Source of the DNA: Actinostola sp. cb2023
Lineage: Eukaryota > Cnidaria > Anthozoa > Actiniaria > Actinostolidae
DNA: 64,000 bases
Reading direction: 5' to 3'
Assembly (NCBI GenBank): GCA_033675265.1
Contig: JAUJYZ010000026.1
Span: forward strand, 94,501 to 158,500
The notes under the pieces are model-generated. The model was not told the DNA's origin. It worked only from the letters and a program-made list of their open reading frames with translations, and made no database searches. Positions 20,488 to 48,800 of the stretch are shown here, piece after piece (positions within the stretch are counted from its first letter, which is position 1; every line of letters starts with the position of its first letter). The translations under genes were made by a program, and so were the position numbers.

Positions 20488-20509
20488 GGAAGGATTATTC
20501 TGCGAGAAG

Positions 20510-21494: not shown

Positions 21495-21503
21495 TATATA
21501 ATG
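21492..21503. promoter_or_regulatory. Palindromic bidirectional start box CATTATATAATG
   Basis: A perfect 12-bp palindrome whose two ends are the start codons of the integrase (minus) and capsid-ATPase (plus) genes. The 6 bp between the ATGs are TATATA. The same box, without the mirror ATG, precedes nearly every other gene of the element, so it probably acts as a promoter/initiator in both directions. Confidence 0.6.
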
Positions 21504-24034: not shown

Positions 24035-24698
24035 TGACTATTGCAGATGATGAAAGCTGCAGGACATCTTTTGAACAGCTTATAGTAAGTTTCTTACAAG
24101 GCAAGCTAAGATTCCTTTTAATTAGATCTAAACTTATAAGAACCGTTGATTCATCCGCCGCAGACTTATCATATAAAGTTTCCTTGCAGATGACATGATG
24201 TGCTTTATTTGTCTCTAGCTGTATTTGTCCTGCAGCGGTGCTGGTGATACGAATATATCTTTCAATCTGCCCTTGATTTGAGAAGCTTTTCTTGAAAGCC
24301 TTCTGTGTCATTGACCAGGATAAAGGAAAGTATATTTTTTCCCACATCGACGGTGGCTGTACAAGTTGGTAAAGAATACTGACTCGTATTGTTCTCATAG
24401 GAAAAGTAATCGACGCTTCCAACATCTGCATCTCCAGATTAAGATCAATTTTCAATTCTGACACTTCTCTATCAATACTGCTGAATACTTCTTTAAGATC
24501 TTCCAATCTAACTTTTATAGCACAGATAATAGGAAGATCTTGTTTTATTTTTACTTTTGCTTTAAGAAAGTTGATAGATTCAACGCTGGCATAAATCTCC
24601 AGAATATCAGAATCGAAACTAAGTATTACTTGATGAGCTCTAAAAGTTCGCAAAAAAGATACGATTGATTTTAAATACGCAGGGTTGGTTATAATCAT
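24006..24698 (-). CDS. Putative sliding clamp (PCNA-like)
   Basis: 230 residues with no stop. The alternating strand/helix pattern resembles the two-domain PCNA fold: an N-terminal LKSIVSFLRTF helix, then VILSFDSDILEIYA (compare the PCNA F.f...Gi.i.a pattern), a central DLNLEMQMLEASI strand, and a C-terminal half with LTISCSKDVLQLSSSA. A clamp would tether the element's polymerase to DNA. Sequence identity to known clamps is not obvious by eye, so this is an inference from the fold pattern. It starts at CTAATATATG on the minus strand, diverging from the VLTF3-like gene 30 bp away. Its 3' end overlaps the tail of the convergent gene at 23372. Confidence 0.4.
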   Translation of the reverse strand: MIITNPAYLKSIVSFLRTFRAHQVILSFDSDILEIYASVESINFLKAKVKIKQDLPIICAIKVRLEDLKEVFSSIDREVSELKIDLNLEMQMLEASITFPMRTIRVSILYQLVQPPSMWEKIYFPLSWSMTQKAFKKSFSNQGQIERYIRITSTAAGQIQLETNKAHHVICKETLYDKSAADESTVLISLDLIKRNLSLPCKKLTISCSKDVLQLSSSAIVIRTMLQQIL

Positions 24699-24728
24699 AT
24701 ATTAGGATAGCACAATGTGTCTCAATAT

Positions 24729-25670
24729 ATGGAGTCTGTGACAGCTTATCTTAGAACACTTAAACGAATGGCGAAAAAATATGATGTGCCGGCGGTGGAT
24801 GAAATAATATCTGAGTTTTATTTAGAGTTATTGGGAGGAGATCTATCAGAGAATTACTTTTTTATGGTGTGGGGTAAATATGAAGATAGAACAAACATAT
24901 TTAATAAACTGCCGGAAGATTTAGAAATAGTTCAGCTGAGGAAAATGTTAAACACTCTCCCACATGCGCTGGAAAATGAATATGAAATATGTATTTGCGG
25001 CGATGAGATGACCATGGATAGAGAAGAATTGCAAATGAGGTGTTCTTGTGGAAGAGAAGTTTCCATGCCCGCATCTGTTAATGATGCTCAATTTTATGGT
25101 CAAGAAGGGCAGTCGGCTAAGCCTAGCATTTTTAATCCCAGCAAACATTATCGTAATTGGATGAATCTTATTCTAGGGCAGTCGGTAGTAATTCCCGACG
25201 ATGTAATAAATAACTGTAAGGATCAATTAATTGGCAATACAATTCAAGATGTCAGAATAGCTCTAAAAGATATTGGCCGTGCAGATTTGAATAAACACGC
25301 TTCTGCAGTTTGGAGCAGAGTCACTGGCAACCCTATACCAAAAGTATCTGCTGATGTGCTTGTTAAAGGAGAACATCTTTTTATACAAGTTTTAGAAGCT
25401 AGAAATCATATCAAGGAATTGCGTAATAGAAATAGAAGATATTACCCTTATTACATTTTTAAGATATTAGACCTCTTAATACCCAAGGGAGAAGACCGCA
25501 GTATTCTACGCTTTATTCATCTGCAAGGTTCTGACACAGTAGAAAATAATGACGATGAATGGCGGCTTATTTGTAAGAAAGTTCCTCTGGAGTGGAGAAG
25601 CACCTGCAGCACTTTAAGAAATGAATTTGGTCCATCTGTTGGTAGTTGGAACTCTGTTGAAAGCTGTTGA
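24729..25670 (+). CDS. VLTF3-like late transcription factor
   Basis: From the ATG at 24729 (preceded by AATAT; an upstream in-frame GTG at 24717 is less likely), 313 residues. The N-terminal helical part is followed by a zinc-ribbon-like ICICGDEMTMD...RCSCGR. Then come the VLTF3 hallmarks HYRNWMNLILG, VIPDDVI, a helical middle, RNRNRRYYPYYIFKILDLL, and near the end RFIHLQGSDTVENNDDEWRLIC. In poxviruses and other large DNA viruses VLTF3/A2L-type proteins switch on late genes; here the partner sites could be the TATATA-ATG boxes. The last 15 residues run into a 21-bp repeat and may be acquired. Assignment is from motif recognition. Confidence 0.65.
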   Translation: MESVTAYLRTLKRMAKKYDVPAVDEIISEFYLELLGGDLSENYFFMVWGKYEDRTNIFNKLPEDLEIVQLRKMLNTLPHALENEYEICICGDEMTMDREELQMRCSCGREVSMPASVNDAQFYGQEGQSAKPSIFNPSKHYRNWMNLILGQSVVIPDDVINNCKDQLIGNTIQDVRIALKDIGRADLNKHASAVWSRVTGNPIPKVSADVLVKGEHLFIQVLEARNHIKELRNRNRRYYPYYIFKILDLLIPKGEDRSILRFIHLQGSDTVENNDDEWRLICKKVPLEWRSTCSTLRNEFGPSVGSWNSVESC

Positions 25671-25712
25671 ACATCTGTTGAAAGCTGTTGAACATCTGTT
25701 GGAAGCTGTTGG
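25640..25712 (+). repeat. 21-bp tandem repeat at the end of the VLTF3-like gene
   Basis: About three imperfect units of CTGTTGAAAGCTGTTGAACAT overlap the gene's last codons and continue to just before the next start box. It may have altered the C-terminus. Confidence 0.65.
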
Positions 25713-25723
25713 AATATTATTAT

Positions 25724-26051
25724 ATGTATATGTCTGAAGCCGCAGATGATCAAATAACCAAAGAACCAGAAACTCCAATTGTTAAGCAAAAGGATCCTAA
25801 GAAAATAGCAGCTGGAAAAAAAACTGGCTGAATATCATAGGAACGCTAAAAAGGCTCTAGAAAAGAGTGAAGTTCATGAAACTACCAACATGCCATCACT
25901 AACAACAGCATTGACACTAGTTGGAATAGGTTTAACAGCTTTAGATTTATATTTTCGATGGAGGAAAGTAGATGCTACACCTACTGTTAAAATAGCACCT
26001 GCTGCTCCTGAACAAATTACAGCAGCTTCTTCGCGAGGAGGCATGGAATAA
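25724..26051 (+). pseudogene. Small single-pass membrane protein, frameshifted in an A run
   Basis: Starts at ATTATTATATG. It is open for about 37 codons (acidic/lysine-rich: KQKDPKKIAAGKK), then shifts frame in a run of eight A (about 25818). The second frame runs to TAA at 26051 and has one hydrophobic segment (about 25887-25940). The original product was a little over 100 residues with a basic N-terminal half and one membrane span. The A-run could be a mutation, an assembly error, or a slippage site. Probably a virion or membrane protein of the element. Confidence 0.6.
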
Positions 26052-26064
26052 AATATATATATAT

Positions 26065-26289
26065 ATGGCAACAGAAAACAAAATGATTAAAACTATTACA
26101 GACGCTTCTGTAGTTGTTGGCATCGCAGCCGGCATTGGCTACATTGGTAAGAAAGCTATGAAAGAGTCATTTATTAATGATCCTAGTAACAGTTTATCAA
26201 ACTATGGTAAATGGGTGGTGGTTCTAGCCGGCTCTATGTATTTGAAGCAATATCTAGAAGATCAAAAAATTCTGCCTAAATATCTATAA
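26065..26289 (+). CDS. Small membrane protein
   Basis: 74 residues starting at TATATATATATATG. Two hydrophobic stretches are visible: VVVGIAAGIGYIG near residue 15 and WVVVLAGSMYL near residue 53. A basic/charged tail follows. The start box, compact size and placement among similar genes support a real virion-associated membrane protein. No homologue can be named. Confidence 0.65.
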   Translation: MATENKMIKTITDASVVVGIAAGIGYIGKKAMKESFINDPSNSLSNYGKWVVVLAGSMYLKQYLEDQKILPKYL

Positions 26290-26294
26290 TATAA

Positions 26295-26495
26295 ATGGCA
26301 AGTGCAGTAGTTATGATGGTTGCTGGGGCTGTTCTGAATGCTACGGCCTTCACAGGCTCGATGTATTTAGCGAAAGCCCTAAGTTCTAAGAAACATACCG
26401 ATGAAGAGAAAATTCGGCATGATAAGGCACTTGAAAAAACCAACATGATATGGGTGAATTTGAAAAGAAGCGTCAGCAGTATCAAGATTGGTTAA
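26295..26495 (+). CDS. Small membrane protein
   Basis: 66 residues, starting at TATAATATAAATG five bases after the previous stop. An N-terminal hydrophobic segment (VVMMVAGAVLNATAFTGSMYL) is followed by a charged, lysine-rich tail. It overlaps the next gene by 46 bp in another frame. Likely an element membrane protein; function unknown. Confidence 0.6.
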   Translation: MASAVVMMVAGAVLNATAFTGSMYLAKALSSKKHTDEEKIRHDKALEKTNMIWVNLKRSVSSIKIG

Positions 26496-26710
26496 CAACA
26501 CGTTATATGAACAAAAAATTAGCGGATGGTAACTTACATGATACGGATTACGCGTTCGCATTATACTCAAAGGCTTATCCTAATTTTAATCTAGAAGAAC
26601 CTCAATTTTCTGATTATTATAAACCTAGCAACAAACATAAGCAATATCAAATGATGTATGTTGGTGGCGGGATGCTGACAGCTGGTTATCTAGCATCAAA
26701 AATTATATAG
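26450..26710 (+). CDS. Small protein with C-terminal membrane anchor
   Basis: 86 residues. A polar tyrosine-rich body (EKKRQQYQDWL, YAFALYSKAYPNFN) ends with a hydrophobic anchor MMYVGGGMLTAGYLASKII. The ATG lies in GATATG, a weaker version of the start box. It overlaps the end of the preceding gene, which suggests compact viral-style packing. Confidence 0.6.
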   Translation: MGEFEKKRQQYQDWLTTRYMNKKLADGNLHDTDYAFALYSKAYPNFNLEEPQFSDYYKPSNKHKQYQMMYVGGGMLTAGYLASKII

Positions 26711-26718
26711 TTTATATA

Positions 26719-28439
26719 ATGGAAGGAGGGGATGTCGATTTTGACCCACTTACACCGGAAGGTAGGACTGATATAAATGAAGATACTGATGAGAGGCAAC
26801 CGCTGCTTGAGAGTGATAGGGGTAATAGAATATCAAGGGCTCTACGTAGAATTAGAAACCCACGGGCAAGACGACGAATTATGAGTTTAGGCCCTACGAG
26901 GGAGGAGTTTGAGTTACAAGATCTTTCTAGACCTGTAGAAGATCTTAATAATGGATTACAGAATATCATAACTGCTGTGGCTAATATTAAAGACCCGCGG
27001 GCAAGAGAAATTCTAGGTTTAGATCGTCCTCAATCTATAGAAGATCTTAATAATGGATTACAGAATCTCATAACTAATGATCCGCATCTTTCTAGACTTG
27101 TAGAAGATCTTAATAATAGATTACAGAATCTCATAACTGCTGTGCATAATATTAATGATCCGCGGGCAAGAGAAATTCTAGGTTTAGATCGTCCTCAATC
27201 TATAGAAGATCTTAATAATAGAGTGCAGAATCTCACACAGACCAGACAAATTCTAGAGCGTTCTCAATCTGCTGACCCACAGATAGGCCGTTCTAGATAT
27301 GATGATTTATTACAGAATCATGCAGCTGCTGAAGAAAGAATCAAATAATTATATCCAGAGTGGGATCCATCAAAAGCTAACTTTACTTATGGTCTTGATG
27401 AATATGATAGGGCTACTGTTAGACTAAGAAATCGTGGGGCGAAAACACATTTATTAACATCACCAGAGCTGCCACAAACAATATTAAACAATTTAGGCCG
27501 ATCGGCTGAAAATATTGAAATGTATAATAGAGCTAAAAAAGATCTTGATATTTATTACACGGATAATACGATTAGTAGGGAAAACGGGTTTGATGTCAGA
27601 ATCAATGAAAGAGATGCTCTTGAGGTCTATGACAGCGACAAGAACAAGTGGTATCCGATTAGCACTAAAATAGGTGACGAATTCAGTGAAAAATCTTTTG
27701 GAAAAATAACAAATAAAATTAAAAATGCTTTAGGCGAGTCTAGTGAATCCAAGTTAAAACGATTAGCTACTTCTAAAGCTGAATATGGTGGAAAACTGTC
27801 AACGTTATATCCTGAAGTAGTTGCCATAAGCGATAGGATAGATGGTAACAATAGAAGACTTACTTCAATTAGTTCACAAATATCAGAAGCTGAGTCGGAT
27901 TATGAGATGTACCATAATTCTCAAAGACAGACAGATGAAACTGTACAACAAATGGAAACTATACGTGAGAAAAGAGATGAGCTAATTGTTGAAATAATAA
28001 GTTAATTGATGATAATGTTGCTCTAAGGGATGCAAAAAATATTTTAGAATCACAAATTTACGAGTTAGAGGATAATAGACAAGAACTTGAAGATGAAATG
28101 GAAATTATAGAAGAAAAATTACCATTGAAAGAAAGGATAAAACTTATCTTTAAAAAATATGGATTCACCGTCTTTGCTATTGTTTCTGCTGTTGGTTTAG
28201 TCATTGGCGTCATTATTAATAGTTTAAAAAGTGGGTTATCTTCGGTTGCACAAGGTCTTGGTAAAGGTTTGAAAACAATAGGTGAAAAATTAGCTCAGAT
28301 ATTACCAGGTATGGTAGGAGCAATAGCCTCCTTTATATTTAAAACTGCTGGTCAGGCTATTGGTTTCCTTGCTAAACATGCCTGGCTATTGATAGTAGCT
28401 GTTGTTTTGTATGTCGTTGAAAGATATAAAAAGAAATAA
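26719..28439 (+). pseudogene. Long coiled-coil protein with C-terminal membrane region, broken
   Basis: Starts at TTTATATAATG. Three stretches belong to one gene. 26719-27348 ends at an in-frame TAA. The same frame continues to 28005. A frame change just before 28005 leads into the last part, ending at 28439. The original protein would be about 570 residues. Features: an acidic N-terminus, an internal duplication of about 60 residues (VEDLNNGLQN, DPRAREILGLDRPQSIEDLN), long helical coiled-coil segments, then a hydrophobic C-terminus (FTVFAIVSAVGLVIGVII; WLLIVAVVLYVVE) with a Gly/Lys-rich linker. Probably a virion or membrane-remodelling protein. The breaks are described only. Confidence 0.65.
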
Positions 28440-28447
28440 TATATATC

Positions 28448-29086
28448 ATGGTAATCCTATACATTGAACAAACAAAAGCTGATCAAACTATTTGGAGTCT
28501 TACTCCTATTAAGGGCACAAAGATATCGCTTGTAAGTTGTAGTTTTTATAATCGTTTGTATAATCTTCCAAGCGAAGGAACTATTTCATATGGAAACGGT
28601 ATTGTCTTAATTCGTATTCCAAAAGGAAACTACACCAATAATAGTTTTAAAAATACACTTGATAACACTATTTCTATTGGTGATAAAAAAGTTTCAATCG
28701 CTATTGAAAATAATAAATATAATATCACTCCGACAACGAGTGTCATGTTAAACCAGAGTTTAGCTAAATTATTAAACCTTGAAACAGCGGCCCTTGAAAT
28801 AAACAACACATATGCTATCAATATTATACCACCTACTCAAGATGTCTGCATTAATTGCGATCTTATTGATTCTACGCAGGTTTTATTAAATAATAAATAT
28901 TCACAAATATTAGCATGTGTTGAATTAAGCAAGGTTGGAGAAAAGACATCGTATAATCCCAATAATTCATTGCATGTACCTATTAAAAATGATTATATTA
29001 ATAGTATTAGAGTTTGGGTGACCGCAGATTCTAAAAACATTAACACTGGAATTTATCCTATGCGAATGGTAATAGAAATAATATAA
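28448..29086 (+). CDS. Penton/minor-capsid-like beta protein
   Basis: 212 residues, intact, starting at AATATATATCATG. It is rich in short beta-type stretches and Asn (VILYIEQTKADQTIW, GNGIVLIRIPKG, SIRVWVTADSKN). The last residues, MRMVIEII, resemble the edge of a jelly-roll or C-terminal strand. It lies in the structural block next to other virion-type genes. A penton or minor capsid role is an inference from composition and context; no specific motif proves it. Confidence 0.45.
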   Translation: MVILYIEQTKADQTIWSLTPIKGTKISLVSCSFYNRLYNLPSEGTISYGNGIVLIRIPKGNYTNNSFKNTLDNTISIGDKKVSIAIENNKYNITPTTSVMLNQSLAKLLNLETAALEINNTYAINIIPPTQDVCINCDLIDSTQVLLNNKYSQILACVELSKVGEKTSYNPNNSLHVPIKNDYINSIRVWVTADSKNINTGIYPMRMVIEII

Positions 29087-29091
29087 TATAT

Positions 29092-29676
29092 ATGGACTAC
29101 AATGAGATTTATCCTGATCTAACAACTGGTGAAAACTTCAGATTACACAAAGTAAATACAGTTTTGTCTCAACTAGGGTCAGAAATAAAACATTATGAAA
29201 ACGGCAGGAAAAAATATGCTAAGATACGCGGAATATTTCATAAAACAGCAGTAGCAACAGGAACTTTGTCTGTAATTTTAACCGGCTCTGGTGTGGCCAC
29301 AAGTTTAACAGGGCCTGGGATCGTTGTCGGTGTTCCTTTATCAGCTGTTGGCGGCCTGTTAGGTTTAATATCAGCTAGTTGCACAGTTTTCACGAAAAAA
29401 CTTACTAAAAAGGTAACAAAACATGAAAATACTATTCAGCTTGCAAAATCAAAAGAAGATAGTATAAGTGATCTTGTATCAAAAGCCTTGAGTGATAACA
29501 AGATTGATGAGAAAGAATTTGAACACATTATGACTGAGTTACAGAAGTATGAAAAACTAAAGAGTAGCATCAGAGTGAAGCAGAATAAGTTAAAAAACGA
29601 TGTTCCAGATGTTCAAAAGTTGAAAGAGGAACTGAGAAAGGAGATTGTAGATCAGCTCGTAAATCCAAAGAAATAA
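29092..29676 (+). CDS. Membrane-active-like helical protein
   Basis: 194 residues, intact, starting at ATAATATATATG five bases after the previous stop. A helical N-terminus is followed by a hydrophobic Gly-rich hairpin (GTLSVILTGSGVATSLTG and VPLSAVGGLLGLISASC, about residues 63-101). Then comes a long charged helical tail (KKLTKKVTKHEN, LKEELRKEIVDQL). The layout of a glycine-rich hydrophobic hairpin between helices recalls membrane-inserting proteins. The function is otherwise unknown. Confidence 0.55.
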   Translation: MDYNEIYPDLTTGENFRLHKVNTVLSQLGSEIKHYENGRKKYAKIRGIFHKTAVATGTLSVILTGSGVATSLTGPGIVVGVPLSAVGGLLGLISASCTVFTKKLTKKVTKHENTIQLAKSKEDSISDLVSKALSDNKIDEKEFEHIMTELQKYEKLKSSIRVKQNKLKNDVPDVQKLKEELRKEIVDQLVNPKK

Positions 29677-29814
29677 CTTTATCCTTTGATAGAACACCTT
29701 ATGGCTATATCTACAAGTGGTGATATGAAAAACAATAATATATATGGTGACAAAAGAAGATATTTATCACTAACGATTTAGATGTACATAATGTTATAAA
29801 TATAAAGGAAATTA

Positions 29815-31447
29815 TGGCGACGTTTCGGTGTCGACTAGGCACCATTATCAAGCGAAATGAGTAGAAAGTCAATGTCATCAATTAAGAGTATAACAGTAAA
29901 TTAGCATAGCACTAAGTAAATAGTTTGGCCCTTAGGGAATCAGATTGTACATTAAGAGTAGGTCGTCTTTCTCTAATTAACAGCATTTCATAGAGTAAAC
30001 AATCAAATTTAGTCTTGCACTTTTTTAGGATCTTAACATTATTATTAATGTCTCTTGGGACAATGTCATGATTCATCCTATAGTGTTTGCCGATGCTGGA
30101 AGACATGCCTTTGTGTTCTTCGATGCGCTCGTGCAGGTGTCTGTAGGTGTACCCCACATAACTCGCATCACACGAGTCACATTTGAAATTATAAACCACT
30201 CGTTGTTGGTTGATGATAAGTGGTTTCTTTTCTTGCACTTTAAGCGATTCGTTTAGCTTACGGCTCACAAAGACTGGTTGTACGGTGGTGTTTATCTTGT
30301 GGCTTAGGTCTTGTAGTTTCCTTCGAACGACATCAGCTGATCGTTGGTCTATAAATGGTATGGTAATTCTGATGTTTTCATCTGGTTCATCGGCTCCTGG
30401 CATATTTGGTTGTTGACTGAGGTTTGCGTCTACAAACCGTTTGATAGCGGTGTTGATTAAGTCATGGGGATACTTAAGACGCAAGAACATTACTTTTAGG
30501 CGGTCGCATTCCTCAATAAAGTAAGACCATGAAGATGATAGGCGATATGCCCGATCGAGCATTGTTGTTACTAGGCCGCGTTTATAACGTTCATCAACAT
30601 GGCTTTCGTGGTGTAGGAGAAGACCGGTGTTAGTAGGTTTGATGTAAACTTTTGTCTCAATATGATGAGATCTGTTTAGCAGTTGCATGCCGAGAAAGGG
30701 GAGCATGCCATTCTCTATTTCCATAGTGAACTTTAGAGAGGTGTGGCATCCATTGAGGTCGTCCAAGAAATCGTTGGCTTCTACTGTACTCGGCATTATT
30801 ACAAGGGTGTCATCAACGTACCTCCGGTAGTATGCGGGCATTTTTCCATCAAGCTGGAGGGTATATTCGATTGAGCACAGAAACACGTTGGCTAGTAGAG
30901 GCCCGAGCGGGGAGCCCATAGCGACTCCGTCGATCTGTTCATATAATGTTCCATTTAGTTGAAACAGTTGGTCTTTAGTAGCGATGTTAAGAAGGTCGAC
31001 AAGGTCCGTTCTGCTTAAATTTAGGCCATGAGTAGCATTGAACCAATTTCTTTCGAAGGCTCTGTTTACTAGTATCTCTATGGTTTCATCCAGCGGGACG
31101 TTTGTGAATAAAGAGGCGACATCGTATGATATCAACATTTCACCACTATTGATTCTTGTAGTACGGATTTCTTCTGCAAACTTGAAAATATCACTTATAG
31201 TGTACTGGTTATAGGACAAGGGCTTTAATCTTTCCTCGAGCCACTTTGACAAGGCAAAATTGTAAGTTGCAGTACCAGATAATATGGGACGCATGGCGAG
31301 GGTTTCCTTGTGGGTTTTGGATAGACCGTACAGATGTGCAAGCCTGGATCCTTTTGGACGGACATAATCAGCGATCGACTTTGGAAGGATTCTCTGCACT
31401 ATGGAAGTAAGAATCTTTTCTTTTTGAATTAAAAAAATATTATCCAC
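29815..31447 (-). mobile_element. 5'-truncated Penelope-like element
   Basis: A minus-oriented insertion inside the split virion-type gene. The left edge near 29815 carries CGACGTTTCGGTGTCGAC. The right edge lies around 31445, where the viral frame resumes. The coding region begins mid-domain, as expected for 5' truncation during target-primed insertion. No clear target duplication was seen. Confidence 0.75.
29912..31447 (-). CDS. Penelope-like reverse transcriptase with GIY-YIG endonuclease
   Basis: 511 codons uninterrupted. The RT part begins at RPKGSRLAHLYGLSKTHK, contains SYDVASLFTNVP and GVAMGSPLGPLLANVF, and has the catalytic YRRYVDDT near the middle. The C-terminus has VVYNFKCDSCDASYVGYTYRHLHERIEEH spread over a GIY-YIG nuclease module (the Cys pair CDSC, then YVGYT), typical of Penelope-like elements. 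The apparent GTG start at 31447 is just the first codon after a stop at the junction; the true N-terminus is lost. An intact long frame indicates a fairly young insertion. Confidence 0.9.
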   Translation of the reverse strand: MDNIFLIQKEKILTSIVQRILPKSIADYVRPKGSRLAHLYGLSKTHKETLAMRPILSGTATYNFALSKWLEERLKPLSYNQYTISDIFKFAEEIRTTRINSGEMLISYDVASLFTNVPLDETIEILVNRAFERNWFNATHGLNLSRTDLVDLLNIATKDQLFQLNGTLYEQIDGVAMGSPLGPLLANVFLCSIEYTLQLDGKMPAYYRRYVDDTLVIMPSTVEANDFLDDLNGCHTSLKFTMEIENGMLPFLGMQLLNRSHHIETKVYIKPTNTGLLLHHESHVDERYKRGLVTTMLDRAYRLSSSWSYFIEECDRLKVMFLRLKYPHDLINTAIKRFVDANLSQQPNMPGADEPDENIRITIPFIDQRSADVVRRKLQDLSHKINTTVQPVFVSRKLNESLKVQEKKPLIINQQRVVYNFKCDSCDASYVGYTYRHLHERIEEHKGMSSSIGKHYRMNHDIVPRDINNNVKILKKCKTKFDCLLYEMLLIRERRPTLNVQSDSLRAKLFT

Positions 31448-32830
31448 ACTCTATAGGTTTTCATGCTTATAGAGGTGGTATTAATTTCGATTGGGGTGGT
31501 GTGGCATATGATGTTTTCATAAAAGATATAGATGGTCCTGTACATCACTATGATGGTATTGTTGAACATGCATTAACTAAAGCATTGGGAAAACGAATTG
31601 ATACAGAAGTTCACAACAATTTCCCAAAAGAATACATGTTAACAAATAAAACATATCCAATTCCTGCTGTTGCTGTAGATGCGGATGTAAATGATGTGGC
31701 GGCAATCTTATCCACACTGAAAATATTTATTACGCCTGGTAAAAGCTTTGATATCCGTCCTAATGATGTTTTTCAACTAACCCCACAATCAATTTCTAAT
31801 ATATCTGAATATAGCACCTGGCTTGAAGAACCAAATATGCGATTTTGGTCTCAACAACTAAACTTTGCTGTGTGGTGTGCAACAAGTGGCTGTGGGATTT
31901 CATATAATATGTTCAAACCAGATAACCAAATTGGATGTATTTTAAGATTCCATGTTCTTTACACAATTAGATCTATTCTAAGTCAGCTAGAAGTGCCGCT
32001 GCCGTGGAATAACACCTTTGTTTGGAATGGCACTCGATACAACTCTTCTGCTTTGAATAGACTTTGTAATGAGTTTGGTGTCACCGCTGTCGATTTCCGT
32101 TTTAAAGGCGAATCAACAAATGCTGACAAGTTCAGTTTTCATTATACGAGTCCAAAGGATAACTCTCTTACAGCATATTATCTTTCCACTCATAAAGATA
32201 GAAGTCAGTATAATTGGTTTGTTCCCCAGTCGTCAAAAGGTCTAACAAAAGCTGGAGTTGCTAGATTAAATAAAAGTATTGAATCCTTTGTTTATTGTAT
32301 TTTAGGTAGTCAAGTAAATACAAGATCTACAATACTAGGAGAATTAGGTTCAGCTGTAGAGACTCAAAGGGTATTTCTACAATTATTTGAAAGTTCTATT
32401 ATTGAGAGAGATATTTCCAAAAGTATCCAAAGATATCAACTAGCAATTCAAGAAGCGAAACTTGATTTAGCTATTTCACCTGGCTGTTGGTTATTGCCGT
32501 CGAATCTTGTAATAAACACAAATTCAATCGTTGGATACAACAATAAATTATTAAAAGCAACCGTGAATATGAAGTTTGGCGTGAATGATATTAATGCTGA
32601 AACAAATTCTATTGGTATAAAACACATGAGTCATTCAAAGATACAATTACCACATCAAAATACAAACGATGAATCCGCAAGGCAAGACACTGCGAATAAC
32701 TTTAGTAAAAATGTAAAACCTACTAAATCATCTAATACTCACGGTACTAATCTAGCAACTATAACAATTGGCGCTGCTGGTCTATCTTGGCTTATGTTTC
32801 GGTAATGGTTAAAAAGTTCAAGTCTTGGTT

Positions 32831-33238
32831 TTAATCGCACAGTTCTTGAGAAGAATCGATTTCATCAGCCTTCAACTTCTCCATTCGCCGCTTGGCCTTT
32901 CGTTCTTTCTTGGAATGGACTTGATACTTATGACGCAGCTTTACAGCTGTTTCTTTCATCTTTTTCCCAATATCAGCCTGATATTTCCTTCTTCTTACCT
33001 CTTCAGTCGCAGCTTGTCGAGATAAATCTAATATCTTAGGTAGTTGGGGAAATACATCGAGAAAATCTTTGATCTGTTTATCACTCATTTCAGCCAATCC
33101 TTCAAAAAAGTTGATGGCGTTAAATGAAACAGAACACATGGCAGCTCCACCAATTTCAAAGGCCACTGTCTTATGCTCCCCAATCTTCTCTAAACACTGG
33201 TCACGACGATTTTGTAGTTGCTTCAGAGAAAGAGGCAT
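32831..33238 (-). CDS. Small basic coiled-coil protein of the element
   Basis: From the ATG at 33238 (an upstream GTG at 33244 is possible), 135 residues. A helical, charged protein with LKQLQNRRDQCLEKIGEH, a central hydrophobic GGAAMCSVSFNAINFFEGL, and a very basic C-terminal helix (KKERKAKRRMEKLK). Convergent with the split virion-type gene, ending 26 bp from it. It lies next to the right-hand palindromic repeats and could be a DNA-binding or core protein. No family recognised. Confidence 0.5.
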   Translation of the reverse strand: MPLSLKQLQNRRDQCLEKIGEHKTVAFEIGGAAMCSVSFNAINFFEGLAEMSDKQIKDFLDVFPQLPKILDLSRQAATEEVRRRKYQADIGKKMKETAVKLRHKYQVHSKKERKAKRRMEKLKADEIDSSQELCD

Positions 33239-33239
33239 T

Positions 33240-33340
33240 TTCACAACATATTACTCAAAATGTTATACGCGCTGCGTCGTCTTCACAACATATTACTCAA
33301 CTGAGTAAAAACTTGAGTAATATTACTCAGCTGAGTTTTT
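33240..33340. repeat. Right-end palindromes and 19-bp direct repeat
   Basis: TTCACAACATATTACTCAA is repeated directly at 33240-33258 and 33282-33300. It is followed by interleaved palindromes: TTACTCAACTGAGTAA (imperfect, 33293-33308), GAGTAATATTACTC (perfect, 33315-33328) and ACTCAGCTGAGT (perfect, 33325-33336). The cluster probably marks the right end or origin region of the Polinton-like element, but without the left end this is not proven. Confidence 0.55.
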
Positions 33341-33345
33341 GATTG

Positions 33346-35125
33346 GTCCAATGAGTTTTAATTGACAGAAGACGCTATTGACACAAGAAAGAAATAGTCC
33401 CTCATTATTATTCATAGACTTGACACGCTCAATATGCAAATTAAAACCTGTCTGGTTTCGTTCGAAATGAATATTTAATGAGCAGCGAGTTTTTGTTTGA
33501 TTTCTTGCACCGCTTCGTTGTAAATTTTCTTTCGTAATTTGGGTATCCCCTTGGTCCAAAATATGACTTGTTATAATAGTAGTAAGACTCCAAAATGGTC
33601 AAGGGGGATGGCCGGGATTTTATTGCGCTAGAACTCTTTATCCGTATATACAAATCATATTTAATAGCCTCATACTGGCGCAACTTTTTGATCATTTTTG
33701 ATCAATTTTTGATCAATCTAGTTATTTTTCTTCAAGGGGGGCTGTTGACCAATGTGACTATTAAGTATAAGTAGTAGGGATTTTACAAAGGTGGTCAAGG
33801 GGGCCCTGCCGGGATTTCACTGCGCTAGAGCCCGCCTTTTACTACTGCTCGAGAGAATGCACCGAAAGTTATTAGCAGTCGAAAATAGGCTATGTTTGGG
33901 GCACTTTTTGAAAGGGAAGGACTTGGCCGATTTTCTCGAGCCATACGTTATTTTAAAGGTCTTCTCAAGGAGAATATCCTACATGTTTCGATAGATGTAG
34001 TTAGATAGATGTAGTTTTAAGGGTGAAAATGACCCTCAAAGTTAAATCTACGAAAAAACACAATTAATTTATGTTAATTTATTCAAGCTCCACACACGAT
34101 GTGAACAGTCTGCGTTAGTAACCTGTGGTGGTATATCGGTCGCCCACCTCCAATACACAAGGGAGATATGATTTTTCAACCGACTTTTCACTTTTTCTCA
34201 AATAAACAACTTTTTTTCATCGAATTGCCCTATACCACTATGACGTCACATCAAAACAATCTATTGTTTAAACGCTAAGGATCATGGTCGCTAGAGGGGG
34301 ACAAAACAGCAACAACACAAAAGATTACCCAAAGAAATGTATTTTACAGACGGTCTGAAAGCGATAAAAGTCACCAAACACAGTAAATATTGTGGGAAAA
34401 GCATCGATGAACATAATATCTGCAGAGCAGATTTAGTTCAAATTTCTATTGTTCTTCACGATTCTGTCCCCCTCATAAATAAGCTGTTACGTCATAATGG
34501 TATAGGGCAATTCACAGGAAAGATGTATGTGGCATATGTTGCCAGGGGGGAGGCCGTTCAGGTGCTTGTGAAAACTAAGTGGTTTAGTAACTTATTTCTC
34601 GAGATATCTCAATTTTGGTGAATGATTTTTCCTCGAAAAATTGAAATCAACTTTTATCCCACTTTTCTCAACTTTTCGAATATGACGCAATACTGGGCAT
34701 GACCCCCTCTTGAAACGTCACACTTTAGTACAGAAACTTTTAAAGAAAGTCAAATATTTCATAAGTTATTCAGGTTTATGTGTCTTTTTTAGGCCAAAAG
34801 CAAAAAATCATCAACTATTCGCATTTAGAGTATTCTCCTTTCTGTTTGTGCAGTTATGCTAAGAACGTCAAGAGGTACATCCCTATTTTTTTGGGATGGC
34901 ACATTAGCATATTTTCATCGAGTAATTAAATGTCGGATCTTACTTTGATTTAGACAAAAAGTGTCACATATATTGCTTTAATAACGTTCTGCAAAACCAA
35001 AAAAATTACCATAGAATTTGCATATATTTTTTCATTTTGGCCCATGTTTGGTCCATTATAGCTTCGTAAACAAGCCGTTTCAGAAGTGCTCTTTCAGGAA
35101 AAAAAATTATATCATCCATGTGCTA
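33346..35125. other. No gene seen; repeats only
   Basis: No convincing coding sequence. It contains a direct repeat (next entry) and a 28-bp inverted repeat GAATTGCCCTATACCACTAT (34219-34247) against its complement near 34489-34517, with AGGGGGACA also mirrored. This is possibly an old MITE. Confidence 0.4.
33596..33829. repeat. Direct repeat pair about 195 bp apart
   Basis: GGTCAAGGGGG...GCCGGGATTT.A.TGCGCTAGA occurs at 33596-33632 and 33792-33829 with a few differences. It is a local duplication or subterminal repeats of an unknown element. Confidence 0.6.
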
Positions 35126-35375
35126 GAGCGCAAGCACCAAAACCGTGAAATAAAATCAAAGTTGTTAGTGCGTAATAGTTGTTATTTAGTGACTATTAGT
35201 CACTATCACTCGACCAGAACAGTTTTTATACCAATACACAGGAGACATTAAATACACAAGAGATTTGGGTTTATTAATAACTTTGTATTTTATAAATATT
35301 ACTTTATTCATGAATCAGGTTCAACACTTGTTCAACAGATAAAAGAACCAAAATTGGGATGAATTCAGAGTATAC

Positions 35376-36410
35376 TTAATTATTGTGGGACAAACAATCT
35401 AAACGCAAAATTTTCCATGCTTTCCGGTAATACCTTCTCACGGTCTGGACATTAATGCCCAGGAAAGCATTCACTATAGCTATCATCATGTTCTCTTGTA
35501 ATGCACCTGGATTTTGTCTTGAAATGGATTTAGCAAGACCAAAGGCCATTTCTATCGGGTTCAAATCGTAGCTATATGCTGGTAACTTTACAAGTGTTAT
35601 GTTCTTAATTGCCAATATTCTTGCCAAATCAGCCTCATTGTGTACACTGGCATTGTCACATATTAAGAAGGTATCTCTTGGTATTAAAGGCAGCATTTGA
35701 TATTCTATAACTTCATTTACCAAAATGGTGTTGAAGTTTCCTTCAATAGGGATTGCTTGAATAAATCCTTCGTTGAATCCACACAGACCCAGAACTGAAT
35801 GTTTTGCAGCCCTTTGATTTTTGCTCCGAAAAGAAGCTAGACGATATCCGAATTCTGTTCGTCCATATTCGCGTTGGTCAGTCTCAGTTGTAAACGATGT
35901 TTCATCAAAGAAATACATTCGAACTGGATCTATGGTCATACGCCAACGTATATAATCTTGACGGCGTTGTAAAACGTACGGAGAGTACCGTTCCCTTGCG
36001 ACATGAATGCATTTTTTTCTCGTGATGTGAAGTTTCTTGAGCAGCGATCTTACAGCTGAGTAGGTAGGAACATCATTAGGCCGAAAGTTGAAATGTTCAG
36101 CAATCATTTGGACACATTCGCGTATATATAATAAAGGATAGATTATTATAAGAGCCTCAATATAGACTTTCATCCATATAGGAATACGGTTTGGTCTTCT
36201 GTTGCCGAAAGAGCGAGCACCAAACTGAGCGTTTTGTTGGAACTGCGTTAGTAATTTTGAAACGCTATTATAAGATATTTTTTCAATTCTGCAAGTGGCA
36301 GCAATTGAACTTGTATTGACGTACGTTAAGATAATCTGTATCCTTTTCTTCATGAGATACGAAGCTCCGTTTTGAAATACTCCTCCTTTAGCATTTATTG
36401 TCCAAGACAT
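35376..36410 (-). CDS. DD34E transposase (DDE_3, Tc1/mariner-IS630 type)
   Basis: 344 residues, intact. An N-terminal HTH region (MKKRIQIILTYVN...RIEKISYNSVSKLLTQF) precedes the DDE core: FFDETSF (Asp169), LICDNASVH (Asp252), YSYDLNPIEMAFG (Glu287). The last two are separated by 34 residues, the Tc1-type spacing. It cuts and pastes the surrounding TIR unit at TA sites. Its last codons lie inside the left TIR, and the right TIR contains a matching decayed copy of the same C-terminus. An open frame without damage suggests the element may be recently active. Confidence 0.9.
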   Translation of the reverse strand: MSWTINAKGGVFQNGASYLMKKRIQIILTYVNTSSIAATCRIEKISYNSVSKLLTQFQQNAQFGARSFGNRRPNRIPIWMKVYIEALIIIYPLLYIRECVQMIAEHFNFRPNDVPTYSAVRSLLKKLHITRKKCIHVARERYSPYVLQRRQDYIRWRMTIDPVRMYFFDETSFTTETDQREYGRTEFGYRLASFRSKNQRAAKHSVLGLCGFNEGFIQAIPIEGNFNTILVNEVIEYQMLPLIPRDTFLICDNASVHNEADLARILAIKNITLVKLPAYSYDLNPIEMAFGLAKSISRQNPGALQENMMIAIVNAFLGINVQTVRRYYRKAWKILRLDCLSHNN

Positions 36411-36778
36411 GTTGGCGCTAGAAAAATATTGGTCTTTACGGAATAACTTTATAAGAATGTGGTAGGATGGGCATGCAGGTTTTAATTCAGATGTAATTAA
36501 GTGAGTGCCTCACATTTTTGCGCTTCTATTTAATTTGGTATAATGATGTAACAAAAACTGATATCCCTTGAATCTAGTTATAAAATTAGTGAGACATAAG
36601 AAACGGGCCACACAGACCCCATGAGAGATGCAGCAATGTCGGAGGAACAATAAAACAACCGTTAATGAAAAATCGGCTTTGTTGAAGTTTGACTTGAAGT
36701 TTCATGATTGCAATCCAGCAGTTGAGGGGGCGGGTTTCGTGTACAGTCTCAACGAAACAATTGAGCTAATCAAGTAAG

Positions 36779-36787
36779 TATATAAAA
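36779..36787 (+). promoter_or_regulatory. TATA box of the DM-domain gene
   Basis: TATATAAAA lies about 75 bp upstream of the DM gene ATG (36860) in the 449-bp divergent region between the two genes. Position and sequence fit a Pol II core promoter. Confidence 0.5.
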
Positions 36788-36859
36788 TGACTGACTTCGC
36801 TCACTGGTAGACTAGTCAACAACTTCTACGAGAGACGAAAAAGCTGTTTTTCTAACGGT

Positions 36860-37967
36860 ATGCTTACTACAAGAACCTGCGCTAAGTGCAAGCTGCACGG
36901 CAAGTACAGCATATTACGGGGACACAAAAGAAACTGCCCGTACCAACACTATTCTTGCTCTAAATGTGCTTCTCACGAGAATATGAAAGACCTGAAAGAA
37001 CAACGCATCCAAAGTACTGCTACAAATACTGTCACAAGAGAAGATAATGTGAGCCAACAATCCGCCATAATACCATTTCCAACCGTCATCCAACTTGCTA
37101 ATTTGGAAACAGAAACTACGTCTATCAGAAGAAGCCGCACTGCTGCAGAAAAACGAGAAGGTACGTAGACAAATCAGAAACAGAATAATACTAAAATTAT
37201 TTGGCAATCAGCCTTTAAAATATTTTCTTATTTTCAGAGGAAAGGCAAAAGAAACTAGAACGCCACAGGGAATTTTACAGCAGCATAAACATATTATCCG
37301 CAGATATCATAAGAACGGAACCCAACTGCATCAGCAACACATTCAAATTAATTCGTCGAAAGATCCAATTTTAATGATGCCAACAGATATACCACGAATG
37401 GAAGGGAAAAGCGCCGATTTAAAGTTCTTCGAGAATATGCTGAAACTAAAATAAATATTTCCCAACACCGACGCTGACACTCTTGCAGCCCTCCTAAAAG
37501 AAGAAAATAACAGTATGGAAGCAGTAGTCGGCATAGTTTTACACAAAACAGAGGAAGAAGACGAAGAAAGAAAATCGATGTATTCAACCGGGGATTCAAG
37601 TTTCTTGGCCGTATCGGAACAGGTAGAGAAGCATAAAATTAAAGAACTGAGTTCTCTTCCTGTGGACTCTGACGGTTTAAAAGAAATTCTTCTAAACGTG
37701 GCATCAATTGAAAGTGAAAAAGCTCAAGACAGAGAACAGAGCACAAAGAACCACAACGTCCTCTCATTTAACAGAGAGGGAGCTTATTCAATCTTATGTG
37801 CGCCTCACCCCAAATCACTGGCCCTTGGTACAAGCCCACAGCCATTAGATCATGATGATCCACATGCACCTGTAAAGTGTTCTTCTTGCCTAAATGTGAT
37901 AAATGGCAAATGCAACTTTTGTTCTTTTTGTGGAAAATTACTCCAAAAGAATTATGGAAGGCTGTAA
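36860..37967 (+). pseudogene. DM (doublesex/mab-3) domain gene carried by the transposon
   Basis: Exon 1 (36860-37160) encodes a DM zinc module: CAKCKLHG, ILRGHKRNC, CSKC. The residues line up with site I C7, C10, H22, C26 and site II H13, C33, C36; the usual first Cys of the C-x-C pair is Tyr31, with His30 next to it. A 77-bp GT/AG intron leads to a coiled-coil exon (from 37238) open to 37374. In another frame the region ADLKFFENML, an in-frame TAA at 37452, then IFPNTDADTLAALL resembles a DMA/CUE-like ubiquitin-binding domain of DMRT proteins. A last Cys-rich tail (CSSCLNVINGKCNFCSFCGK) ends at 37967. DM proteins bind the DNA minor groove and regulate transcription. The frame change and stop suggest damage or unrecognised splicing. 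Confidence 0.7.
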
Positions 37968-37974
37968 CTAACGG

Positions 37975-38272
37975 AAAACATGGGAAATTTTGCGTTAAGA
38001 TTGTTTGTCCCACAATAATTAAGTATACTCTGAATTCATCCCAATTTTGGTTATTTTATCTGTTGAACAAGTGTTGAACAATTCATGAATAAACGGTAAT
38101 ATTTATAAAATACAAAGTTATTAATAAACTCAAATCTCTTGTGTATTTAATGTCTCCTGTGTATTGACATAAAAACTGTTCTGGTTGAGTGATAGTGACT
38201 AATAGTCACTAAATAACAACTATTACGCACTAACAACTTTGATTTTATTTCACGGTTTTAGTGCTTGCGCTC
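37975..38272. repeat. Right TIR, including a decayed transposase C-terminus
   Basis: The inverted counterpart of 35126-35420. In one plus-strand frame it reads RKTWEILR-stop-DCLSHNN, matching the transposase end RKAWKILRLDCLSHNN. The TIR therefore arose from, or was corrected by, the transposase end. Confidence 0.7.
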
Positions 38273-39027
38273 TATACAACTGTGCTAACTGTTAGGACTA
38301 GCTATCTAATCTAGCTGAGCTAACAATCGTCAAAATTCAGAAAAATATTCAAAAAAAAGGTAAACAACTTTTTTCGATATTTGGTCGATGCGCAGTACTA
38401 CACGTTACACAATATCGATGCGCATAGACGAGTCTTACATAGGACAGACAGTAGTATATCATGTATCGATAACTGCTTCACAGCTTTCTTATTTACTAAG
38501 ATATGGAGCCATGAAATAGGCCCAAATTGCATGTTTTTAACTTTGTTCGATATTGTGATTTTCGTATCTCGGTCAGATTAGAGAAGACTAGATCTACAGT
38601 GATTTTGTTCAATAGGCCACGGACCGTAGTCTATTTGTGCTTCTGAAATCCTATCCGATAAGAGGCTTGGTTAACGAGATATGAAGTACCAATAATGCTC
38701 CAATTGTTTTCAAATTCGACGAAACTTTGTACAGGTATAGTAAATTAATACCACAAGACACCAAGATAGTTTCAAGACTGTTGTTACAGTATTTATAGAA
38801 AAACAAATTAAGTTATAATCCACAAAATTCCAGCTTGGGCTTCCTGTGCCGTTCAATATCAAACAAAATACGAATTTTGTGAATAGCCAGTACTGTGTAG
38901 TGAAAAGCCAGAATTAAATTAACATTTGACTATATTAAGCATTTTTGTCGAACTCTGATGATCAAAATAGCAACAGAATAAAACCTTATTACTATAATCG
39001 GTTTTTGTGCTTCCGAAATTACGCTTT

Positions 39028-45066: not shown

Positions 45067-45972
45067 TTAAACAGAAGGTAAGGAATGAGTCCTAATGTAT
45101 TTTTTAAATGCATCAGACTTCCAACGACCTAATAGCCTAATCTTGGAATCCGATAAACCTTGCTGAGCAGCATATGTCGCTGCCCCTATTCTAAAACTAT
45201 GTCCCTTATATATATTGGGATCAAGATTGCAAATCTTAAGAGATGTGTCAAGCAGTTTTGAAAACACAGTCCTTAACACTGGGATCCCCTCACTGTCAAT
45301 AAACAAAGGTCCATTCTCAATGCCACGAACTACAAGATAATGCAAAATAGTTTGCACTGGACAAACTGCAGGCTGCCGTGATACAACAATAGAAAATGGA
45401 GGTTGATTATAATTATGCTTATAGTTATGAAATGTAACCTTAAGGGAAATGACACGACCATCTGAGGCTGAAAGTTTGGTGACCTGACTAAATTGCAGCA
45501 CATCATTGATGTTTTGTTTATTATCACTTGTAATTTCGCCAATACGAAGAAAAGCGAAAAATGATAAAGAACACATGGCCTTAAACATAAGAGCCTGATA
45601 ATGCGAACTGCAAATAGCCACTCCAGACTAAGTAATACGCAACAAAATTGGTAGTGTTATAGGTAATCTAGAATCTAAAGTCTGACCTAACTTACCATAA
45701 CCCCTAAGCATTTCAATAACATAGCATATTTTAGATGGATCTTGCAAACCTGCAAGCCTGTGATAATAGCATAAAGCTGAAACATATGTGTTAACTGTAG
45801 ATGAAGCATATTTCTTGTCAAACAAATATGCTATAAATAAAGCTAAAGTGGTTGGGGGAACCGGAAGAGCAAGGACTGAATTTCCAAAACAACTAGAATA
45901 AAACTGCCCAAAAAGGCGCCAAGCCCTCTGATAGGTGGGAATGAAAGACTTCTGCAAGCTTGATGATAACAA
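45067..45972 (-). pseudogene. Ngaro tyrosine recombinase, in-frame TAG
   Basis: Integrates the retrotransposon's circular intermediate. The N-terminal SAM-like domain (45972-45628: TTLALFIAYLFDKKYASSTV) is separated by one in-frame TAG (about 45626) from the catalytic domain. That domain has FLRIGEI (Arg), GHSFRIGAATYAA (HxxR) and LLGRWKSDAFKKYIR (Trp/His position and nucleophile Tyr). Apart from the TAG both parts are in the same frame. Confidence 0.85.
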
Positions 45973-45980
45973 TTTATAAA

Positions 45981-47700
45981 CTAAAGGCTCCAGTTCGAAG
46001 GGAGTAACTGAGTTGGTACAATCGTGGGGGAATTGTCGAAGTAACCTGGGGCCAACTGTCTGAAACGCAGTATCTGTAAACGAGACAATGCATCTGCAAG
46101 ATGATTTTTAACTCCAGGTATGTGTTTAGCTTTAAAAAGAATATTATATTTCAAACACACCAAAACAAGCTTGCGAACAAAAACCATAAGTGTCTTATCC
46201 TTACATGTGCATCTATTTATCACATAAACTAAGGATTCATTGTCAGTTAAAAATGTAATGCATTGATTGCGCATCAGATTACCCCAAAGTAAAAGACTAA
46301 GTAAGAACTATTGGATAAAACTCTAAAATGGCTATGTTCTTATATTGCCATTCTCTGGGCCACTCCCCATAGCACCAATGAGATCCAAAAATTGCTCCAA
46401 AGCCTATTGCTCCAGAAGAATCTGTGAAAAGCTGCAAGGAATTACTATCCTGCCATATATCACTAAGAAAAAAGGACTTTCCATTAAATTGTTGAAATAA
46501 TTGCTGCCAAACAAGCAAATCTGCTTTATCCTCCTTTGTCAAACGAACAAGGTGCTTAGGATGTTTTAAACCTATTGTCAAATCAATAAGTCTGCGCAAA
46601 AATGCACGACCTGGCACAACAACTGAACAAGCAAAGTTCAAAGTGCCAATAAGGGACTGCAAGTCATGCAAAGTTGCTTTCTTTCTAAGCATGAAAAAAG
46701 AGATCAAATCCAAGCATTTAGATAATTTATCTTGAGGTAACCGAGCCTCTGATAACTGTGTGTCAAGCTCGATGCCTACAAAAGTTAAAGTTGTAGATGG
46801 ACCAAACGTTTTTTCTGGTGCCATGGGAACGCCCAGGTATTGACAAAGCTCTAAGAAAGATGCGAGGCCTCTATTACACTGCTGTATAGATGGTTCAATA
46901 ATAAGAAAATCATCCAACAAATGAATTATGTTGTGAATACCTAATTTGTTATATGCAATCCATTCAATTGCTGTACTGAAAGCCTCAAATGTTTTGCAGG
47001 AACTGGCACAACCCATAGGCATACATTTATCAAAATAATATTTACCCTTCCATTGCATACCTAACAAATGAAAATCTAATGGATTTATGGGTATAATTCT
47101 AAAAGCATGTTTTACGTCAGTTTTGGCTAAATAGGAACCAACACCAGCACGTTTTATACCACGAACTGCATCATCAATTGTAGCATAAGTAACTCTGGTG
47201 AAAGCTGATTAAATACCATCGTTAACTGACATGCCTTTAGGATAAGAAAGGTGATGAATCATGCGATATTCACCAGGAGTCTTTTTGGGAACAATACCCA
47301 AAGGTGATACCCTGAAATGAGGTAAAGGGTGTGAAGGGAAAGGACCAGCAAGCCTATGGGCCTCCAGCTCCTTAAAAAGTTTGCTTTCAACAATATGGGG
47401 GCTCTGTTGTGCAGACAGTAAATTTGGTCCTTCAAATGTTATATTGTCAATATCAGAAAAAATACGAAACCCATATGTAAAACCTTCGATAAGAAATTGT
47501 GACTTATCAAAATCATAATCAGAGAGCAAAAGCTTTAAATTATTTACTCTTACTGGTGTTGGCAAAGGTAGCACTGGCACTGGCATTATTGGATTGCTTC
47601 TCTTTTGAGCCACGAAAATTACACTTGTTAAGAGGGTGCCCAGACTTCTTACACTCTGGGCAAGAATGATTAAAAGCACAGCCAGAGCAAAAGTTACCCT
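45981..47700 (-). pseudogene. Ngaro reverse transcriptase-RNase H, broken
   Basis: The N-terminal RT part overlaps the gag 3' end in another frame (VESKLFKELEAHRLAGPF, PLGIVPKKTPGEYRMIHHLS) and runs to an in-frame TAA at about 47209. It then continues through TDVKHAFRIIP, PMGCASSCKTFE and the catalytic IHLLDDFLI (47067-46297). RNase H follows with LFTDSSGAIGFGA, and, after a one-base shift near 46290, TDNESLVYVIN and HIPGVKNHLADALSR. The domain order and LLDD box fit DIRS/Ngaro RTs. Confidence 0.85.
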
Positions 47701-48588
47701 TATGGTATTTCCAGCAAAATCCCTTTGGGACCAGCAACCTAGACTTATTCTCAACACCAGTAAGGGGCTTAGTGTTAGCCTTAAACTGTTGGAGAGGCTG
47801 TGAACGCATCCAAAGTTCAGCGTGAACTGCCCCCCAAGGGAATGCTTTAGGTTCACTCTGTCTGAGATATCTAAAATTCTCATCATAGTATCTCCAATTG
47901 TAACCCCTCATCGCATGATCTCTAATCCTGTCGCTATATTTCATAAAAGCTGGAGCCTCTTGTGGGTATTTTGATGTAAATATTCCCACAAACACTTGAA
48001 AAGCAGAGGTCCAAGCTTCAATATTAGCTATGTTCATTAAAGCTGGCAAACCAGGACTGTCTTTCTTCTCTGATACATAAAGGTGATAACCAGAGGAAGT
48101 TTTTGAGTGGCTGCTTATGAGTATACCAAAATCACTGTACTCGTTAGACCAAATTTTTGCCTTAATTTTGGCTGGTATTCCCATACCAATGGGAAGACTT
48201 TTAGAAAGAAAAATATTCCTGGGCTCAGCCATTACATTTGAGTCAGTCAACTCACCCGACAGGTTACCCAGGACAGCAGCTACCGACCCCTGTACAATAG
48301 CCGCTGCCCCGGAATCATCATCAGAGTGACCTGAACCAGACAAAGATAGTGTAGATTCATTTAAACTATTAACATTTGCACTAGTACTTGCTGCCTTGGA
48401 AGATTGAAGAGTAGCCAGGACAGACAGTGAACTTTTTGAACTAGCTGCTCCATATCTGCTGTACTGATGGTAGTAGTACTAGCAATTGTATTGGGGACTC
48501 CTGACGACGTGCGCCTTCTTCTTGCTAGAGGTGCTGCTTCCAATATAGCCGATGAAGGCCGTTTCACATGAGAACTTTTACGAGGCAT
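47540..48588 (-). pseudogene. Ngaro gag-like protein, one frameshift
   Basis: The start MPRKSSHVKRPSSAIL at 48588 begins a Ser/Thr-rich N-terminus. A frame change near 48,425 leads into the main frame (to 47540), which has WSNEYSDFGILI, WTSAFQVFVGIF and FMKYSDRIRDHAMRGYNWRYYD. A C-terminal Cys/His zinc-knuckle-like region follows (FCWKYHKGNFCSGCAFNHSC, CPECKKSGHPLNKC). Packages the element RNA. It overlaps the start of pol. Confidence 0.75.
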
Positions 48589-48800
48589 TCTGAAAGAAAA
48601 TGAACTTAAAGAAAATAGAGTGTAGTGCAAAATAAATATAATTAATAACAGACATACATTGAACAAAGGTACATTACCATAAAATATAACAACATCGACT
48701 TGTCACAATATACAACATTAAATATTAACTGGCAGGAGGTGACTTGGCAGACCTAAAACATTACACAGTCGCCGCTATAAATCGCCACCTCCTAACTGCC

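Follow-up and report, generated by a model that had tools for sequence, protein, structure and literature searches.

The window analysed here (G000:C388:94501-158500) is a 64-kb stretch of the genome of the sea anemone Actinostola sp. cb2023, in an assembly of 424 Mb and 1594 contigs. It holds one copy of a two-gene DNA transposon of the IS630/Tc1/mariner type, which inserts at TA (Table 1).

Table 1 Features of the window element (family A) and the further families in which a DM exon lies head to head with the transposase
Feature	Location	Strand	Remarks
Whole element, family A copy	35126..38272	.	3147 bp; TA flanks, inverted ends, other copies
TA target-site copy, left	35124..35125	.	
Left inverted repeat	35126..35429	+	about 304 bp, small indels
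19-bp palindrome, central A/T	35187..35205; copy in right inverted repeat, 38193-38211	.	candidate protein-binding site
DDE_3 transposase ORF	35376..36410	-	344 aa, stop-free
Gap between divergent genes	36411..36859	.	449 bp; presumed shared promoter region
DM gene exon 1, DM domain	36860..37160	+	Pfam DM E = 9.4e-11, above cut-off
Intron	37161..37237	+	GT-AG, phase 1
DM gene exon 2: charged segment, CUE-like segment, Cys-rich tail	37238..37967	+	frame broken, one stop
Right inverted repeat	37969..38272	-	
TA target-site copy, right	38273..38274	.	
Family B	C767		transposase 65% identical to A
Family C	C1335, C403		transposase 50-51% identical to A; the two 98% alike
Family D	C521, C1192		transposase pieces 29-63% identical to A
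Family E	C1412		transposase 48-56% identical to A
Family F	C976		transposase 42-46% identical to A

A transposon with two divergent genes

The borders given in the initial annotation proved exact, with TA on either side and terminal inverted repeats (TIRs) whose arms align over 179 nt at 97% and over 111 nt at 95%. The transposase, rightly the only gene that the annotation called intact, matches Pfam DDE_3 (E = 4.5e-17) and has the DD34E spacing (34 residues, D252 to E287). For an N-terminal paired-like helix-turn-helix there is a PAX match below the cut-off (E = 0.0025); in family B (E = 5.1e-6) and in the protein P0002 the same match exceeds it. No DDE_Tnp_4 or Myb/SANT-like match was found by Pfam in the three ORFs of the element at E <= 1.

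The divergent, spliced DM gene that had been proposed is also present; its two exons encode a DM domain followed by a CUE-like segment and a tail rich in Cys. The CUE-like segment is below the Pfam cut-off here (E = 0.0017) and above it (E = 1.5e-5) in P0040, an Actinostola sp. cb2023 protein whose letters are encoded on C1266, another copy of the element. Zinc-ribbon matches to the tail are all sub-threshold, and at E <= 1 Pfam gave no DMA/DMRTA match for the window ORFs, P0040 or the DM proteins of other families that were searched. The DM gene of the window copy is decaying. Its exon 1 is 95% identical to that of P0040; relative to P0040 a short stretch has been lost and the frame shifts near 37325, exon 2 is interrupted by a stop in frame at 37452, and in the DM module Tyr replaces one Cys. 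The eight positions that we take, from DSX, to be the zinc ligands of the module are all filled at C1270, C767 and C1335, with one altered in the window copy and a different one in P0040.

Elsewhere in the window, a Polinton/Maverick-like set (17672-33244) includes a Pox_A32-type ATPase (E = 1.9e-10), an rve integrase (E = 1.4e-6, below the cut-off) and an ORF that by eye is polymerase-like; inside this stretch lies a Penelope-like reverse transcriptase with a GIY-YIG domain (29912-31447, minus strand). We also found ORFs for a tyrosine recombinase (449-1532; E = 1.3e-9 to Phage_integrase) and for DIRS-like reverse transcriptase (45067-48343), a piece of a DDE_Tnp_4 transposase (63215-63763, minus strand; E = 3.3e-18) and a tandem repeat with units that encode LCQHVGWTK (48744-49160, plus strand). 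Rfam and tRNA scans of the 64-kb window returned nothing useful.

Copies and mobility of family A

A genome search recovered 11 copies of this element, which we call family A. C1127 and C1266 are 98.4% identical over 4.5 kb, flanks included, and C250 and C318 have an identical flank, so the copies represent 9 insertion loci. TA followed by GAGCGCAAGCAC occurs at all 15 visible ends of the 11 copies, and the four near-full copies share 97.2-99.0% identity. DM sequence is present in 9 of the 11; the exceptions, in which the transposase side alone was matched, are C250 and C318, the two that share a flank. None of the nine has a complete and unbroken DM gene. The window copy has the only near-full-length, stop-free transposase of the family: there is one stop in C643, two in C1127, three in C1266 and two in C1270, and the transposase of C1301 has no stop and is partly deleted. 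Because every family A DM gene that was read is broken, any recent movement would have needed an intact DM protein from elsewhere, or none.

Insertion is recorded at paralogous empty sites. Among the best 40 of 2045 candidates, the sequence made by joining the two flanks of the window insertion matches 13 other places at 77-81% identity, with the match running across the junction, and the joined flanks of C643 match 12 places at 90-96% and one shorter place at 93%. These sites, found for two of the four insertions tested, carry a single TA; none was found for C1127 or C767 among the best 40 of 2045. The paralogous empty sites indicate a transposon insertion, and we therefore rejected a nested host gene, which the initial annotation had raised as an alternative. 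Short MITE-like relatives with family A ends occur at more than 20 places in the genome, including L022 (C1301) and L023 (C1008). A public contig of 1426 bp (P0005, JGI) encodes a transposase with 97% identity across 69% of the query that continues into a PIN-domain end; this contig is possibly chimeric.

Association of the DM gene with one transposase clade

A PF00751 scan of the genome gave 48 DM hits, 40 of them above the cut-off, and a transposase search gave 113 matches, merged to 92 loci (in both cases among the matches listed). Of these loci, 27 were assigned by identity and tree to the clade of the window transposase, a membership that is our judgement. Among the matches listed, a DM hit lies within 3 kb at 13 of the 27 clade loci and at 0 of the 65 others, with a chance expectation of about 0.0007 per locus, and 14 of the 48 DM hits are within 3 kb of this transposase and 34 elsewhere. 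In all 13 pairs the two genes are head to head and divergent; at two, C643 (E = 0.018) and C1412 (E = 0.36), the DM hit is below the cut-off and the exon was confirmed by tblastn. DM exon 2 occurs at two further clade loci (C1162 and C543), and the DM gene lies farther away at three loci of family G, described below (C154, C1263 and C775). No DM gene was found in the stretch read at the remaining nine (C1145, C1424, C1527, C164, C250, C318 at two places, C364 and C864), of which C1145, C1527, C164, C364, C864 and C318:241 kb were judged without fetched sequence. At C1424 the upstream flank of the DM gene persists and the gene itself is gone.

Exon-2 probes against 13 DM loci of about 3.1 kb (host-type, L036 and L045) detected no exon at E <= 1, and viral-contig and genome-contig scans yielded nothing useful. 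The genome also has another set of DM domains away from this transposase, in at least three copies (L032, L033 and L036, on C418, C294 and C1572; CTRCRNHGL...CPHKGC), and three DM hits inside 1.8 kb at C744:157982-159772 (L029 and L034), perhaps tandem host genes or exons.

The initial annotation had read the locus as a Tc1/mariner-type element with its own DM gene, and this reading holds beyond the window: chance as the origin of the arrangement is excluded by the further copies, the diverged families and the empty sites.

Diverged families with the same gene pair

In five further families (B-F; Table 1) a DM exon and a transposase likewise lie head to head, and the transposase matches are 29-65% identical to A. 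Both DM exons were found in families A, B, C and D, and exon 1 alone, within the stretch read, in E and F. Identity of exon 2 to that of A falls from 37% in B (E = 1e-40) to 27% in C (E = 1e-30) and 26% in D (E = 2e-16). The position and phase of the intron are common to A, B and C; the C-terminal KNYxRL is present in these three and absent in D. Pfam gives a weak CUE match in B (E = 0.075) and, at E <= 1, lists none in C. In C1335 both DM exons are open and the transposase has one stop; the DM genes of C767, C521 and C403 have one stop each, and that of C1192 is strongly decayed. The divergent genes are separated by 449 bp in A, 317 bp in B and 182 bp in C.

The DM gene is enclosed by TIRs in families A and B, and in G at C154. 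The ends are GAGCGCAAGCACCAAAACCGTGAAATAAAAT in A and GAGTGCAATCCATATGTCCGTGAAATAAAAT at both ends of B, with TA outside; one end each was recognized for C (GAGTGCAATTTAGAAAAGCGTGAAAAG) and D (GAGTGATTCCAATAAACC). Terminal motifs are related among A, B and C, and a subterminal block of A recurs at the right end of B. Paired TA-flanked ends were not found by search for C1335, C403, C521, C1412 or C976, and a single end was recognized later for C1335 and for C521.

Public protein sets contain transposases that are 68-73% identical and are not recognized in this genome (P0001-P0003). An ENA contig of 1721 bp (P0041) encodes a DM exon that is 41% identical to that of the window, with AEKR as the common end of exon 1.

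In family G, the transposase is about 40% identical to A and lies apart from A-F with 100/100 support in a tree of 46 rows. The left ends of G are TA plus GAGTCGATTTCGTATGAG. At C154, GAGTCGATTTCGTATGAG occurs in inverted orientation at 74127 and 98459, TA included, and the stretch from one to the other is 24.3 kb; between these ends the transposase (minus strand) and the DM gene (plus strand) are convergent and far apart. A tyrosine-recombinase-like ORF, seen by eye in this span, suggests a nested element. At C1263 the same gene order fits inside about 9.5 kb, and the DM protein matches DM (E = 1.5e-9) and CUE (E = 3.4e-7, above the cut-off), with a sub-threshold zinc-ribbon-like tail. The right end of the C1263 element was not found. 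Two candidates for it were rejected: an inverted G-type end near C1263:17331, which looks like one end of a MITE of about 208 bp, and a homology border at C1263:21924, past which homology among the other copies continues, so that a MITE seems to have inserted in C1263. The gene order at C775 is known by coordinates only, and at C1424 the transposase side is joined straight to the DM upstream flank. G-type DM genes at C84, C1423, C1518 and C231 were not linked to a transposase, and MITE-like elements of about 215 bp have family G ends.

Constraint and relationship to host DMRT genes

In 12 comparisons of DM exons between families, pS is 0.74-0.87 and pN 0.34-0.50, with 11 of the 12 saturated; three comparisons of transposases gave pS of 0.72-0.75 and pN of 0.21-0.33. 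These values make constraint on the DM protein clear, at a level weaker than that on the transposase.

The comparison with host DMRT genes that the initial annotation had proposed sets the DM domains of A-F apart from eight host-type domains of this genome and pieces of DSX and DMRT1 at 88/90, a moderate value that is not starred and goes with long branches. All transposon DM domains fall on one side of the tree, weakly (64/76). Because the DM tree separates the DM domain of G from those of A-F, the transposase lineage may have met a DM gene once, ahead of the split between G and A-F, or on two occasions.

One-off capture was rejected, as DM exons occur in five further families and in further family A copies. 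The suggestion of a captured host gene now dispersed is, as a recent capture, too young a picture for a DM gene that sits in families 29-65% identical and in another at about 40%. A possible relative is the Nematostella Dmrt NvDmrtF, described in parts of PMC4433094 as having DM, DMA and zf-ribbon-3 domains, from which the transposon DM gene may have come, or which may itself be a former transposon gene. A broader proposal is that a deep anthozoan Tc1/mariner lineage has depended on a DM protein for its transposition, and that some anthozoan Dmrts derive from, or gave, the partner gene, an exchange between a family of sex regulators and a transposon; we regard this combination as doubtful.

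Possible roles of the DM protein

Because the gene is kept across distantly related families, the DM protein probably helps the element to move or to control itself. The likeliest reading, in which we have moderate confidence, is that it is a long-kept DNA-binding partner of the transposase, with a role in transposition analogous to that of the Myb-like protein of Harbinger. The pairing at 13/27 against 0/65 loci, the shared intron of A-C, the enclosure by TIRs and the conserved DM protein all support such a partner. The DM protein would recognize a palindromic site with an A/T centre within the inverted repeats, other parts of it would recruit the transposase or hold it at the ends, and it would thereby license excision or aid nuclear entry, as the Myb-like protein does in PIF/Harbinger. 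DM proteins bind A/T-centred palindromes, which makes the palindrome TAGTGACTATTAGTCACTA, present in both family A TIRs 62-80 bp from the end, a candidate site; at the corresponding place the right end of family B has TTTAGAGACTAATAG. It speaks against this site that, among the ends compared, the perfect palindrome is absent from those of B, D, G and the MITEs, and that of C lies elsewhere. Counting against a partner are the 9 of 27 clade loci with no DM gene in the stretch read and the weak or unlisted Pfam CUE match in B and C. With all nine family A DM genes broken and the window transposase not, the element may be able to do without the DM protein or may obtain it in trans; a partner is in general not needed by transposases of this superfamily, according to passages of PMC12242761.

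Ranked second, and in our view unlikely, is a protein with no role at the ends that regulates transcription of the element through the intergenic stretch and times the transposase to certain cells, perhaps the germline or one sex. The short distances between the divergent genes of A, B and C would suit such a regulator, and DM proteins are transcription factors, 7 of the 11 Nematostella Dmrts differing between the sexes in the account excerpted from PMC4433094. A shared promoter is not a general feature, however, because the two genes of family G are convergent and widely separated. Action on the host, by countering silencing or altering germ cells such that more copies are inherited, seems improbable; DMRT relatives act in germ cells, and long purifying selection is compatible with any useful function. 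That a host DM gene was captured once and is carried as a passenger without function would fit its breakage in all nine family A copies that hold it, but is contradicted by the several diverged families, the shared intron and the conserved protein, and is very improbable. That a DM gene family of host or foreign origin simply happens to be a neighbour of transposases, to which the 34 DM hits beyond 3 kb among the matches listed might point, is hardly credible given the DM gene between TIRs in A, B and G, the independent TA insertions and the empty sites at two of the four tested.

The reading of the DM protein as a partner of the transposase, if correct, would give DM domains a role outside development, and would offer an old DM DNA-binding system for comparison with DMRT1 and doublesex. 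Counts of cnidarian Dmrt genes may include transposon genes, as 14 of the 48 DM hits among the matches listed are within 3 kb of this transposase and the DM gene of family G lies inside a larger element.

Comparison with known systems

Tc1/mariner elements are textbook one-gene transposons, and a branch that keeps a DM partner through great divergence would add a two-component type to the superfamily. The initial annotation knew of no described Tc1/mariner family with a DM partner, and our literature search agrees: in titles and abstract openings, with Repbase and most subscription papers outside its scope, there was no DM-domain gene inside a transposon.

The element resembles IS630-Tc1-mariner (DD34E) transposons in its DDE_3 transposase, TA target site, inverted repeats and MITE-like relatives, and differs in its second conserved gene; members of the superfamily typically encode the transposase alone, with the telomere-bearing elements (TBEs) of Oxytricha as an exception, according to parts of PMC12242761. 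The TBEs are ciliate elements, no DM domain is mentioned in the parts of PMC12242761 that concern them, and they are set apart here by description. Compared with cnidarian DMRT proteins, the DM gene has a similar DM domain and CUE-like segment, with zf-ribbon-3 reported for NvDmrtF (PMC4433094, in part), which is likened by description only; unlike them it is transposon-borne, and the domains of A-F group apart.

PIF/Harbinger likewise has two genes, a DDE transposase and a partner, in that case a Myb-like protein that binds both the TIRs and the transposase and has a part in nuclear import (as excerpted from PMC9179366). That system has a DDE_Tnp_4 transposase and a Myb/SANT-like partner, whereas ours has DDE_3 and DM. 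According to sections of the same source, the Harbinger partner evolves faster than its transposase (PMC9179366), and the DM gene is, in the same way, less constrained than the transposase beside it.
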